Positions 34,359 to 39,211 of a stretch of DNA of 64,000 nt are shown here, one piece after another; the stretch's first letter is position 1; each line of letters begins with the position of its first letter. The stretch covers positions 124,001 to 188,000 of the forward strand of contig NZ_JAQKGV010000003.1 in the NCBI RefSeq assembly GCF_028617075.1, in the 5' to 3' direction. The notes beneath the pieces were generated by a model that saw only the letters and a list, made by a program, of their open reading frames with translations, was not told the DNA's origin and did not search any database. Origin of the DNA: Rubrobacter calidifluminis. Lineage in GTDB: Bacteria > Actinomycetota > Rubrobacteria > Rubrobacterales > Rubrobacteraceae. Both the position numbers and the translations under genes were made by a program.

Positions 34359-34580
34359 CTAAGAGCTCCACCTCTTTCCAACGACGCTGCGCACGACGAC
34401 CGAGGCAGCAAGGGTGGCGGCAACCGTAAACCCAGCCCTGAGCAGGGCCTCCTTCACGTCGTCTTTGACACCCCGCTCCTCGGGCAGGTCTATGAGCCGC
34501 TCGGAGAGCCGGCTGGCCAAAATCGAGGAGAGAGCCGAAGAGAGTATGGTTATCAGCCGCTTCTGCACTTCCTCGCTCAT
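34359..34580 (-). CDS. Small hypothetical protein
   Basis: 73 residues, helical, with a hydrophobic segment at 49-66 (AGFTVAATLAASVVVRSV). Separated by 37 bases from the downstream hydrolase on the same strand, so likely co-transcribed. No family recognised. Confidence 0.6.
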   Translation of the reverse strand: MSEEVQKRLITILSSALSSILASRLSERLIDLPEERGVKDDVKEALLRAGFTVAATLAASVVVRSVVGKRWSS

Positions 34581-34678: not shown

Positions 34679-34984
34679 TCAGCCGGCCTTCAGCCCCTCA
34701 CTGTAGAGTTCCCGCAACTGTCCGCGCAGAACCGCCCTTTCGTAGGGCTTCGCATAGCAGTCTATACAGAAGAGCACCTCCTCGGGACGCCCGGGATGCA
34801 AATCGTAGTCGATCATAAACTCCAGCAGCTCCCGGAAACCATCACCAGCCTGATCCACGAACTCGGAGAAGGATATCCTCCCGGAGATCAGAAGCTCACA
34901 CGCCTCCCGCCGGTCGAGACTCCCGAGGCGGCGGCTGGTGTGCCTCACTATGAACCCCGGGGTGCCCTCCACCTCCTTCTGCAT
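34679..34984 (-). CDS. Hypothetical protein with CxxC-like pair
   Basis: 101 residues starting at ATG 34984, which has AAAGGGG six bases upstream; a frame extending to 35053 is less likely. Contains GFIVRHTSRRLGSLDRREACE and FCIDCYAKPYERAVLRGQL (given here as FCIDCYAK). The CIDC pair might bind metal. Family not recognised. Confidence 0.65.
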   Translation of the reverse strand: MQKEVEGTPGFIVRHTSRRLGSLDRREACELLISGRISFSEFVDQAGDGFRELLEFMIDYDLHPGRPEEVLFCIDCYAKPYERAVLRGQLRELYSEGLKAG

Positions 34985-35195
34985 GGATGGCCCCTTTCTT
35001 TCAGGCCCGCCGCAGCGGGCTCGGCCCACCTGCTCCCCGTAAACCTCCCTCATACCGGATCACTCCATCCCGGCTCCCCAGTGTAATAGAGTTTACGTAT
35101 CATATGCGGTTTTGTAAAGCCGCTTTCTCCAATTCCAACCCGGAGGCTCTATACTCATTCCCTCCACGAGGAGGCGAAGAGACTCGGAGGCGATC

Positions 35196-36419
35196 TTGGA
35201 CCACAGAGCGCGGCTCGTGATCGTGGGGGCAGGTTTCGCGGGGGCCTCGCTGGTATGCAACCTCCCCGCCGCGCTGCGTCGTCCGGGCGCCACCCTGCTC
35301 ATCGACAGGGCGGACCGCTACTCCTTCATCCCGCTCGTCCACGAGGTGGCTTCTGGCAGGGTGCATCCCGAGAGCCTGATCTCCCCCCTGGAGCCGCTCT
35401 GCCGGGGGCGCTGCGGCTTCCTGCAGGCGGAGGTGGAAGGGGTGGACCTCGAAAGGCGCACGATCCACACCTCGGATGGGAGGATCATCGGCTACGAGAC
35501 GCTGGTCCTGACTCCGGGCAGCGTCCCCGCCGCCCCTCCAGGACATCTGGAGGGGCACGTCAGGACGTTCTGGTCGCTTGAGGACGCGCTCTGGCTCCGC
35601 GACGAGCTGGCCCGGAGGTGGGAAGCCGCCCGCCGGGGTGGTAGTGCACCCCCTTCCGTGGCCATCGTCGGTGGCGGGGCCACCGGCGTCGAGCTCGCCG
35701 CCGAGGTGGCGATCCTGTTCTCCCACCTGCAGAAGCTGCCCGGCAGAAAGCCATACCCATCGCCAGTGGTACACCTCATCGAGGGCGAGCGCAGGCTCCT
35801 CGGGTGGCTCTCCCCTTACTTCCATTCGGTCGCGGTGGAGGAGCTGCAGCGCATGGGCGTGGAGGTCAGGCTCGGGCACTTCGTCGACGAAGCCGACCCG
35901 GAGGGGGTGAGGGCCGGCGGCGAGAAGATCCCTGCCCCGGTGAAGATCTGGACGGCCGGAGTCGAGGCCAGCCCGCTCGTCAGGTCACTCCCCGGCGAGC
36001 ACGACGGCATGGGGCGGGTGCGGGTGAGCGGCAACCTCACCCTCCCTGATCACCCGGAGGTCTATGTTCTCGGTGACTCGGCGCTCTGCGAAACCCTAAA
36101 CCACGAACCCCTTCCCCCCACGGCCTCCGTTGCCGTCCAGCAGGGTCCGTACGCAGCCCGGAATCTGGGCCGCAGGCAGAGGAGGATCAAACAACCCCCG
36201 TTCCGCTTCTTCGACCGCGGCTATGTGGTTGGGCTGGGGCCCGGCAACGCCGTGGCGGAGGCGCTGGGGGTCCGTCTGAGAGGACCCGCGGCACAGGCGC
36301 TCTACCGCAGCATACTCCTGTACTACATGCGGAGCAGGGAGGGCCGCCTGCTCACCCTCTCCGACTGGACCTTCGATCCCGTGCTGGGGAGGCTGGGCTT
36401 TTCATCCTCATCCGTCTGA
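35196..36419 (+). CDS. Type II NADH dehydrogenase-like FAD oxidoreductase
   Basis: 407 residues. FAD motif LVIVGAGFAGASLV near the N-terminus, NAD motif SVAIVGGGATGVELAAEV at about 151-168, and the FAD-ribityl motif EVYVLGDSALC. The TASVAVQQGPYAARNL segment matches NDH-2. It would transfer electrons from NADH to quinone without proton pumping and could feed the nitrate reductase (inference). TTG start with GGAGG. A -10 TATACT is at 35150-35155. Confidence 0.88.
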   Translation: MDHRARLVIVGAGFAGASLVCNLPAALRRPGATLLIDRADRYSFIPLVHEVASGRVHPESLISPLEPLCRGRCGFLQAEVEGVDLERRTIHTSDGRIIGYETLVLTPGSVPAAPPGHLEGHVRTFWSLEDALWLRDELARRWEAARRGGSAPPSVAIVGGGATGVELAAEVAILFSHLQKLPGRKPYPSPVVHLIEGERRLLGWLSPYFHSVAVEELQRMGVEVRLGHFVDEADPEGVRAGGEKIPAPVKIWTAGVEASPLVRSLPGEHDGMGRVRVSGNLTLPDHPEVYVLGDSALCETLNHEPLPPTASVAVQQGPYAARNLGRRQRRIKQPPFRFFDRGYVVGLGPGNAVAEALGVRLRGPAAQALYRSILLYYMRSREGRLLTLSDWTFDPVLGRLGFSSSSV

Positions 36420-36671
36420 GAGATGCCTCTCGGCTATCTCCGGCACGTCCTCCGGACGGACGCGGGTGTACCACACGTCGTCCGGGAAGACGAAGACCAC
36501 AGGCCCCTCGTGGTGCCGCCGGGTGCAGACGTTGGGGAGCACCACCGAAGGCGAGAGCCCCCGGCGCTTCGCCTCTTCTCTGAGGAGGCCCAGGATCTCG
36601 CCGCCCCCCTTCGACCCGCACCGGCCCTCTCCCTCGTTGGCGCAGACGAATATCTGGCAGAACCTCGCCAC
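36408..36671 (-). CDS. Thioredoxin-like [2Fe-2S] ferredoxin with a Cys-to-His ligand change
   Basis: 87 residues, the length of a minimal thioredoxin-like ferredoxin. The family has ligands CxnC and CxxxC, the second pair in a GCMNACMMGP-type loop. Here the ligands would be Cys10, Cys18, Cys49 and His53: the loop reads NVCTRRHHEGPVVFVFPDD, with His at the usual fourth cysteine. The rest (DVWYTRVRPEDVPEI, ERHL) is canonical. Convergent with the NDH-2 gene, overlapping 12 bases; 28 bases after the malic enzyme gene on the same strand. Confidence 0.85.
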   Translation of the reverse strand: MARFCQIFVCANEGEGRCGSKGGGEILGLLREEAKRRGLSPSVVLPNVCTRRHHEGPVVFVFPDDVWYTRVRPEDVPEIAERHLSDG

Positions 36672-36699: not shown

Positions 36700-38145
36700 T
36701 CAGAAGCCCGAAGAAGTGATCCCCATCTCGTTCCTGTCCTCGACCTTGCGCGCCAGTCCGCTCCTCTGGGCCGCCTCGGCCACCGCCCCGGCCACCGCCG
36801 GCGCCACCCGCTCGTCGAAGACGGAGGGGATTATGTAGTCCTCCGAGAGCTGATCCTCTGAGATCACCCCGGCTATCGCCCGGGCCGCGGCCAGCTTCAT
36901 CTCCTCGTCGATGCCGCGCGCCCGCACGTCGAGCGCCCCCCGGAAGATTCCCGGGAAGCAGAGAACGTTGTTGATCTGGTTCGGGTAATCGCTCCTGCCG
37001 GTGGCGACGATCCTGGCGTGCCCGGCGGCCTCCTCGGGCCTTATCTCCGGGTCCGGGTTGGCCATCGCGAAGACGATCGGATCCCGAGCCATCTTCTTCA
37101 CGTGCTCCACACTCAGCACCCCGGGCGCCGATAGCCCGAGGAAGACGTCGGCCCCCTCTATGGCGTCCGCGAGCGTGCCCCTGAGACCCTCGAGGTTGGT
37201 GTTCTCCGCGAACCATCCCCCCGAGGTGTCCGCCGCCTCCCTGCCGCGGTAGACGATGCCGTCCCGGTCGCAGCCGATTATGTTGCGCGCGCCGGCGGAG
37301 AGCAGGATCTTCGCGCACGCGACCCCGGCCGCTCCCACGCCGGTTATGACGATCTTGAGATCCTCGATCCTCTTGCCCACGATCTTCAGCGCGTTTATGA
37401 GCGCGGCGAGCATCACCACCGCCGTGCCGTGCTGGTCGTCGTGGAAGACCGGGATCTCGAGCTCCCGCTTGAGACGCTCCTCGATCTCGAAGCACCGCGG
37501 CGCGGAGATGTCCTCCAGGTTTATCCCGCCGAAGGTGGGGGCGATGCTCCTGACGACGGAGACGATCTCGTCCGGGTCTCTGGTATCCAGGCAGATCGGG
37601 AAGGCGTCCACGTCTGCGAAGGTCTTGAAGAGCATCGCCTTCCCCTCCATCACCGGAAGCGCCGCCTCGGGTCCTATGTCCCCGAGCCCCAGAACGGCCG
37701 TACCGTCGGTCACCACCGCTACCGTGTTGCGCTTTATCGTCAGGTTGAAGGCGCGTTCGGGATCCTCGGCTATCGCCCGGCAGACCCTCGCCACCCCCGG
37801 CGTGTACGCCATCGAGAGGTCGTCGCGGGTGGCGAGCTGGCGTTTGGGCGTGACCTCTATCTTGCCGCCGAGGTGGATGAGGAAGGTCCTGTCCGAGACG
37901 TTCACCACCTCGACCTCGGGCAGCCCTTCTATGGCCTGGATGATCCTGCGCCCGTGCTCGGAGTCGCGGGCGTTGACCGTTATGTCCCGGATGGAGCGCT
38001 TCTGCCCCATCCTGACGATGTCCACCGCCCCGACTATCCCCCCCGCCCCGCCTATGGCGGTCATGATCTGGCCCAGCGCTCCCGCCCGGTGCGGATATTC
38101 GACCCTTATGGTAAGACTGTAGCTGGCGCTCGGTATCGCCTCCAC
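36700..38145 (-). CDS. NAD(P)-dependent malic enzyme with N-terminal ACT domain
   Basis: 481 residues. The N-terminal ~75 residues are an ACT domain (SLTIRVEYPHRAGALGQIM), a likely allosteric sensor. Then the malic enzyme: LSMAYTPGVARVCRAI, VTDGTAVLGLGDIGPEAALP, FHDDQHGTAVV for metal binding, and the Rossmann GVGAAGVACAKILL. It decarboxylates malate to pyruvate. GTG at 38145 is preferred because GGAGAAGG lies six bases upstream; GTG at 38151 and a TTG at 38202 are alternatives. Confidence 0.93.
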   Translation of the reverse strand: MEAIPSASYSLTIRVEYPHRAGALGQIMTAIGGAGGIVGAVDIVRMGQKRSIRDITVNARDSEHGRRIIQAIEGLPEVEVVNVSDRTFLIHLGGKIEVTPKRQLATRDDLSMAYTPGVARVCRAIAEDPERAFNLTIKRNTVAVVTDGTAVLGLGDIGPEAALPVMEGKAMLFKTFADVDAFPICLDTRDPDEIVSVVRSIAPTFGGINLEDISAPRCFEIEERLKRELEIPVFHDDQHGTAVVMLAALINALKIVGKRIEDLKIVITGVGAAGVACAKILLSAGARNIIGCDRDGIVYRGREAADTSGGWFAENTNLEGLRGTLADAIEGADVFLGLSAPGVLSVEHVKKMARDPIVFAMANPDPEIRPEEAAGHARIVATGRSDYPNQINNVLCFPGIFRGALDVRARGIDEEMKLAAARAIAGVISEDQLSEDYIIPSVFDERVAPAVAGAVAEAAQRSGLARKVEDRNEMGITSSGF

Positions 38146-38249
38146 GATCACCCTTCTCCGACTCGACAACACCCCTCTCAACAGTATCTTCGCATATCCC
38201 AACCACCATGGCCCCGGTTAATCCCACCCTCTAGACGGTTCCCTGCGTC

Positions 38250-38390
38250 ATGCCCGTCGCAATGTTCTCTTCGAACCTCTCCGGGGTGCGCGGCATCCTC
38301 CCCGCAACCCTTGCCGGGCCGCGTATGGAACACGCTGCGGCCGCGATAGACTTCCTCAGGGGAAGCGGAGCACCCTACACAGGTAGGTAG
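38250..38390 (+). CDS. Possible 46-residue small protein
   Basis: In the 229-base gap between the malic enzyme start and the next gene, the plus strand has an ATG frame of 46 codons with protein-like composition (GILPATLAGPRMEHAAAAI). No ribosome site precedes it, and its last 16 bases overlap the stop of the minus-strand gene. It may be a fragment of something larger. Otherwise 38203-38374 holds nothing recognised. Confidence 0.2.
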   Translation: MPVAMFSSNLSGVRGILPATLAGPRMEHAAAAIDFLRGSGAPYTGR

Positions 38391-38848
38391 CCGGTATCGT
38401 CGGGGAGGTCTCTGCCTGGCAGAGCGTCGCGGCGGGCCAGAAACCACCTCCCGAGCGGCGTGCGCTCGCCGGCCTCCTCCGCGGCCTTCTCGAGCCCGGC
38501 CCGGAGCTCCTGCAGGATCGGCGGTCGCTCTCCGTAGGAGACGACCTCGAGCTCCGCGACGAGCGCGGCGTCGATGAAATCTCCCCACGCGGAGGAGGTA
38601 TCCTCATCCTCGGGCTCCGGCGGGGAGGCGAAGGCCCGCCTTATCTCCTCCGGGAGCGAGGCCCGGGAGATGATCTCCACCCGCTCCGGCAGCTCGGGAC
38701 GGCCGGAACGTTCCAGGTACGCCCTCGCCCGGATCAGCAACATCCGCGAGGGCAGGGTGCGCTTCTGCCAGGACTCCCCCACGGCCTCCCAGTTCACGAA
38801 CGATCCCCCGTAGAGGGCCTCGAGATCCACCGCGAACACCTCCCGCAT
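38375..38848 (-). CDS. Hypothetical protein
   Basis: 157 residues from ATG 38848. Helical and charged; contains GGSFVNWEAVGESWQKR, and near the C-terminus TPLGRWFLARRDALPGRDL. Family not recognised. Divergent from the next gene with a 57-base intergenic promoter region. Start is uncertain because GAGAGG directly abuts the ATG. Confidence 0.6.
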   Translation of the reverse strand: MREVFAVDLEALYGGSFVNWEAVGESWQKRTLPSRMLLIRARAYLERSGRPELPERVEIISRASLPEEIRRAFASPPEPEDEDTSSAWGDFIDAALVAELEVVSYGERPPILQELRAGLEKAAEEAGERTPLGRWFLARRDALPGRDLPDDTGYLPV

Positions 38849-38905
38849 CCTCTCTTCGGGAACTAGTTTAGCCCGAAGATCGCCCGCAGATGCTAGTATC
38901 TGCGT

Positions 38906-39211
38906 ATGGCTACCCTGATCTGCACCGCAAAACGGGTGGGTGACCTCGAGAGCCGGACCGAGGAGTACCAGCTCGCCTTCGCCGTGGACGGCTCTCCCAA
39001 ACAAGAGCTCCGGATAAGGTACCAGGCCGCGCGAGCCTACGAGATAAACGCGGCGCTGGACGCAGCGGTCGAGAAGGCCCGGCGCGCGATCTCCGAGGCC
39101 GGGTCCGAGTCCCACCCCACCGACGAGGCCCTCTCCCAGCTCGCCTGGCGCACCCTGCAGTCGGCCAAGTACGAGCGGGGAGAGGAGAAGCGCAACACGC
39201 TGGAGCTCTGA
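38906..39211 (+). CDS. Hypothetical protein, leaderless message
   Basis: 101 residues, mixed alpha/beta composition with KQELRIRYQAARAYEINAAL. Family not recognised. TAGTAT at 38894-38899 is six bases before the ATG, so transcription should start at the initiation codon. Confidence 0.65.
   Translation: MATLICTAKRVGDLESRTEEYQLAFAVDGSPKQELRIRYQAARAYEINAALDAAVEKARRAISEAGSESHPTDEALSQLAWRTLQSAKYERGEEKRNTLEL

Follow-up and report, generated by a model that had tools for sequence, protein, structure and literature searches.

A thioredoxin-like ferredoxin of the Rubrobacteraceae with a predicted 3Cys:1His cluster site

The ferredoxin locus

The window, by which we mean the whole 64,000-nucleotide stretch of Rubrobacter calidifluminis DNA analysed here, carries on its reverse strand a gene for an 87-residue ferredoxin (Table 1). 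An earlier sequence-only reading had given the same open reading frame, which starts with GTG. The product has cysteines at positions 5, 10, 18 and 49 and histidines at positions 53 and 54. The putative ligands are spaced C10-x7-C18-x30-C49-TRR-H53-HEGP and lie in the stretches FVC10ANEGEGRC18GSKG and NVC49TRRH53HEGPVVFVFPDDVWY. That the gene follows a malic enzyme and faces a type II NADH:quinone oxidoreductase (NDH-2), as had been noted from the letters, is borne out by the annotation of both neighbours. The malic enzyme and the ferredoxin probably form an operon. The TTG start listed for the malic enzyme is mechanical and the true start probably lies about 18 codons later.

Table 1 Features of the locus (positions are those of the window)
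Feature	Position	Strand	Evidence or remark
73-aa protein	34359..34580	-	conserved neighbour in syntenic block; no Pfam match
124-aa protein	34679..35053	-	divergent to NDH-2; C-x-x-C motif (FCIDCYA); locus-conserved across family; no Pfam/NCBIfam match
NDH-2 family flavoprotein	35196..36419	+	PF07992; PDB NDH-2s to E 6.5e-36; convergent, 12-bp tail overlap
87-aa TLF, predicted His-ligand variant	36408..36671	-	GTG start, stop included; PDB relatives, AlphaFold/Foldseek, orthologues in 31 genomes
His53 codon (CAC), predicted fourth ligand replacing Cys	36513..36515	-	H 31/31; C in all-Cys relatives examined; second H of Suc_Fer HxGGH
Arg51-Arg52 codons, ligand loop C-x-R-R-H	36516..36521	-	31/31; all-Cys relatives have E-P/A or G-L/F/Y
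Cys49 codon, predicted ligand 3	36525..36527	-	31/31; aligns with A. aeolicus Fd Cys55 and first His of Suc_Fer HxGGH
Cys18 codon, predicted ligand 2	36618..36620	-	31/31; aligns with second ligand Cys
Cys10 codon, predicted ligand 1	36642..36644	-	invariant in orthologues; matches the first Cys ligand across all TLFs
Cys5 codon, unconserved	36657..36659	-	C 9, R/V/K 11 among 20 covered
ACT-domain malic enzyme	36700..38202	-	PF00390/PF03949/ACT_4; upstream of ferredoxin, same strand, 28-bp gap
246-aa protein	38375..39115	-	conserved neighbour in syntenic block; no Pfam match

Neighbours were counted over 30 orthologous loci with flanks (L085-L114). NDH-2 lies convergent beside the ferredoxin in all 30. 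The malic enzyme adjoins it in 26; in two loci the contig ends, and in the remaining two the gap holds an aldehyde dehydrogenase gene (L067) or other genes over about 3 kb (L077). The window's genome (G000) encodes two further, more distant NDH-2-like proteins, making three such flavoproteins in all. Neither NuoE (PF01257) nor a Suc_Fer protein was detected in it, and the 87-residue protein is thus the only one of thioredoxin-like ferredoxin (TLF) type detected in this genome. Complex I may lack its NuoE module or be absent altogether. The neighbourhood is suggestive only of a role for the ferredoxin in NAD(P)H/quinone metabolism and of a link to the malic enzyme or NDH-2. Against a functional link, NDH-2 is on the opposite strand, the malic enzyme is separated in two genomes and one genome (G062) has NDH-2 without an adjoining ferredoxin.

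Fold and conservation of the ligand positions

Sequence comparison and the structural model assign the product to the superfamily of thioredoxin-like [2Fe-2S] ferredoxins. A search of PDB sequences returned the Aquifex aeolicus TLF (1f37, 1m2a, 1m2b, 1m2d) at E values of about 1e-12 to 1e-14, as well as HydB-type domains; the NCBIfam model fdxn_Clost also matched (E 2e-12), under its own cut-off. An AlphaFold monomer, modelled without a cluster, has a mean pLDDT of 91 and a pTM of 0.83. Its best Foldseek matches are the A. aeolicus TLF as wild type, C55S and C59S (E 9e-7 to 1m2b; TM 0.76-0.82), with Azotobacter vinelandii FeSI (5abr) in the top ten. GPVV, PDDVWY and the C-terminal helix of the TLF scaffold are all kept, and the suggestion that the rest of the fold is intact agrees with this model. 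In the alignment from the PDB search C10, C18 and C49 fall on ligand cysteines of the A. aeolicus protein. The C-terminal stretch aligns in gap-free register and puts H53 at the position of Cys59, which upholds the original proposal that His occupies the fourth ligand site. The C59S variant of this protein (1m2d, 1.05 Å) was deposited as a [2Fe-2S] ferredoxin, a hint that a non-Cys residue is tolerated at the position homologous to H53.

The gene is present in 31 of 39 Rubrobacteraceae genomes, and all 31 encode C49-x-R-R-H53. Alignment of homologues at position 53, which the sequence-only reading had put forward as a check, thus gives His in each of the 31 orthologous genomes. Compared codon by codon over this set, C18, C49, R51, R52, H53, G56 and P57 are identical throughout. 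Asp65 is invariant as well in the alignment of orthologues. C10 is found in all 30 copies that cover it; the remaining copy, that of R. marinus, is frame-disrupted upstream. His53 is encoded by CAC in 30 genomes and by CAT in one, the arginine codons differ synonymously and pairwise dN/dS for the gene is about 0.1-0.3. Purifying selection acts on the ferredoxin gene, including its ligand set. The invariant ligand positions, the synonymous codon change and the low dN/dS together mark His53 as a fixed, selected feature, and with His encoded in 31 genomes a sequencing error at this codon is excluded. Other residues were considered as the fourth ligand and rejected. Cys5 is Cys in just 9 of the 20 orthologues that cover it (otherwise R, V or K) and is therefore no candidate. 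Position 54 is E in 20, H in 9, K in 1 and D in 1 of the 31 genomes, so His54 was likewise set aside.

Genomes of the family without the gene are mostly incomplete assemblies. In G014 the contig breaks off within NDH-2, and G062 (79% complete) has other genes where the ferredoxin would be. The complete genome of Rubrobacter marinus (CP045121) has both the ferredoxin and the NDH-2 gene frame-disrupted (L083, 5960-7500), the latter lying in several frames. These disruptions are probably assembly indels, not biology, and we do not count the R. marinus copy without C10 as a real exception.

Relatives and the origin of the histidine

The protein stands between two groups that share its fold. With the all-Cys TLFs (A. 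aeolicus Fd, 1f37/1m2a; A. vinelandii FeSI, 5abr; Clostridium pasteurianum 2Fe Fd) it has in common its length, three of four ligand positions, the GP behind the ligand loop, the PDxVWY strand and the C-terminal helix; identity to A. aeolicus Fd is 33-36% in a structural alignment. The ligands of FeSI are Cys11, 24, 56 and 60 (PMC8561814). It differs in having His at the fourth ligand position, within C-x-R-R-H rather than C-x-E-P-C, C-M-N-A-C and similar, and in a first loop that in this family is usually C-x7-C, as against C-x10-12-C. Members from genus g4 (L027/L029) of the His family do have a first loop of x11-12. With C10-x7-C18-x30-C49-x3-H53 the window's protein departs from the all-Cys pattern C-x10-12-C-x29-34-C-x3-C, and by sequence it is a variant of the TLF superfamily and not an all-Cys member. 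The TLF domains of NuoE, HydB and HydC, which are structural matches to the model, share the fold; unlike the free 87-residue protein they are all-Cys with a C-x3-C pair and are parts of multi-subunit flavin complexes.

The second group consists of Apd1, Aim32 and the Suc_Fer proteins (PF06999). The sequence-only reading gave four cysteines as the rule for minimal ferredoxins of this family, which leaves this 2Cys:2His branch of the fold out of account (PMC11138216, PMC11126956). In the TLF domains of yeast Apd1 and Aim32 two Cys bind the ferric iron of the [2Fe-2S] cluster and two His the reducible one; both proteins perform proton-coupled electron transfer (PMC11138216). The 2Cys:2His pocket of an Apd1 AlphaFold model superposes on the 4Cys site of FeSI (PMC11126956). 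These proteins share with ours the fold, a His at the fourth ligand position and a short first loop (C-x7/8-C). However, their third ligand is a His too (H-x-G-G-H), and they run to about 300 residues, whereas the 87-residue protein has Cys third, and its GPVV motif is of the all-Cys type. In place of H-x-G-G-H it reads C-T-R-R-H, and the position of the first His is Cys in 31/31. Aligned with bacterial Suc_Fer sequences, H53 falls on their second His and C49 on their first, so the ligand set appears half-way between 4Cys and 2Cys:2His.

Comparison across Rubrobacteraceae and other actinobacteria gave Suc_Fer proteins with H-x-G-G-H or H-V-G-Q-H at both C-terminal ligand positions. The all-Cys TLFs examined from the nearest class, like the more distant paralogues examined within Rubrobacteraceae, have C at both (C-x3-C). 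Between these ligands R-R of the His family contrasts with E-P/E-A or G-L in the all-Cys TLFs. The His-family profile scores E 8e-25 against the all-Cys TLFs and 2e-11 against the bis-His group, and the 87-residue protein matches PF06999 below threshold (15.6 bits against a gathering value of 34.9; E 0.018). A tree was computed on 84 columns, few as these are, with the ligand-loop columns left out. In it the His family is a single clade (100/100) on a long branch, grouping with the all-Cys TLFs apart from the bis-His proteins (100/98). This grouping speaks against close descent from the 2Cys:2His branch, although a union of the His clade with the bis-His group survives an AU test (p 0.41). On the profile scores and the tree grouping, His53 is more probably an independent gain than a residue shared with the bis-His branch; one or two origins are both allowed.

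Further TLFs turned up in the comparison. Many Rubrobacteraceae have a second, all-Cys TLF with CLGLCK[HQR]GP and a short first loop (L115-L119, L123, L124, L126-L130), no copy of which was detected in the genome that contains the window. Two genomes of the same phylum (G056, G042) encode two-domain, Suc_Fer-like proteins (L122, L125) whose C-terminal TLF half has C-x8-C ... SHVG[QG]H and keeps the free-TLF ending WYG..TPD[DE]VPRIV. In sequence these seem nearer to the free TLFs than the other bis-His proteins are, and they may bridge both branches.

Genomes were surveyed for the His-type TLF with a strict DNA pattern, C-x3-H-x2-GP...[FY]P. It was absent from 358 other Actinomycetota and from 300 genomes of the phylum to which L084 belongs; a plasmid search gave weak partial matches at best. 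The all-Cys control form matched just 8 of 120, so the pattern is insensitive: absence outside the Rubrobacteraceae is not absolute, and rarer or looser cases are possible. Among the genomes searched with this insensitive pattern, the C-x-R-R-H ferredoxin is confined to Rubrobacteraceae. We found no report of a 3Cys:1His TLF in the literature searched, which did not include the key Apd1/Aim32 study.

Predicted coordination and possible role

His at the fourth ligand position, its invariance in 31/31 and the intact fold make a 3Cys:1His [2Fe-2S] site formed by Cys10, Cys18, Cys49 and His53 the best reading. The ligand set had been likened to that of mitoNEET. This predicted set is indeed common to both, but the fold and motif of mitoNEET/CISD proteins (C-x-C-x2-S/T-x3-P-x-C-D-G-S/A/T-H) are unrelated and no homology was seen. 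The 87-residue sequence contains no CDGSH motif, gave no CISD match in a Pfam scan and has no Rieske-type C-x-H ... C-x2-H. Apd1, Aim32 and Suc_Fer, which have the same fold, are the closest precedent, much nearer than mitoNEET. The pH-labile cluster put forward in the sequence-only reading would follow only by analogy with NEET proteins, a weaker case than the Apd1/Aim32 parallel.

We propose that the product is a small [2Fe-2S] electron carrier of the cytosol with the TLF fold, probably dimeric, in which the Rubrobacteraceae have fixed a His for the fourth Cys beside a new Arg-Arg pair. From the chemistry of Apd1 and Aim32 and the intermediate ligand set we infer that the C49/H53 pair holds the reducible iron. 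With one imidazole and two nearby arginines the reduction potential would be higher than in all-Cys TLFs, and the His ligation together with the arginines would make reduction proton-coupled. The protein would then most likely serve as a single-electron shuttle in aerobic NAD(P)H/quinone metabolism, with the neighbouring malic enzyme and NDH-2 as presumed partners. We consider this explanation, taken as a whole, reasonably likely. That one bacterial family holds a natural 3Cys:1His site in the TLF fold, put to use in proton-coupled electron transfer where NAD(P)H and quinones meet, has, in our view, an even chance of being right.

With the same coordination the role could instead be sensing, or cluster or thiol regulation: a cluster that is labile or redox-tuned, like those of IscR, RsrR and NEET proteins, would signal the redox state to the malic enzyme or NDH-2. 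[2Fe-2S] clusters with His ligands are frequent among sensors and transferable clusters (PMC11138216), the invariant basic RR pair adjoins the site and no other TLF-type protein was detected in the genome. We nonetheless regard such a role as unlikely: the 87-residue protein has no DNA-binding or other effector domain, and small TLFs, little known as their function is, are generally taken to be electron carriers (PMC11138216). Still less probable is a fourth ligand other than His53, with Arg51 or Arg52, an acidic residue, water or a small molecule completing a site of three Cys. Arg51, Arg52 and Asp65 are also invariant and biotin synthase has an Arg ligand (PMC11138216), but His53 sits exactly at the ligand position of the all-Cys TLFs and at the second His of Suc_Fer, and nothing else is required there. 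A CCCH site for zinc or another mononuclear metal on a former ferredoxin scaffold seems very improbable. Zinc is commonly bound by a CCCH set, and NEET proteins were initially mistaken for zinc proteins (PMC11138216); against this, the TLF scaffold is kept with its GPVV and PDDVWY motifs and C-terminal helix, the 2Cys:2His relatives with this fold bind [2Fe-2S] (PMC11126956), and our searches gave no zinc TLF. A degenerate TLF or sequencing artefact that binds no cluster has a negligible chance, contradicted as it is by 31 genomes, the invariant ligand set and dN/dS of about 0.1-0.3; no support for it was found, the R. marinus copy (L083) being the sole frame-disrupted one.

Returning to the 3Cys:1His electron carrier, such proteins are easily missed, as the Pfam match is sub-threshold and the NCBI models fall under their cut-offs. 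A 3Cys:1His site in the TLF fold would be the missing ligand set between the 4Cys and 2Cys:2His branches. If true, one small soluble scaffold occurs naturally with all three ligations, and within one fold it would become possible to compare directly what each histidine does to potential, proton coupling and lability, a comparison that Rieske and NEET proteins cannot give because their folds are unrelated. The little-understood role of free-standing TLFs would also become testable in an organism whose genome has, as detected, a single TLF.
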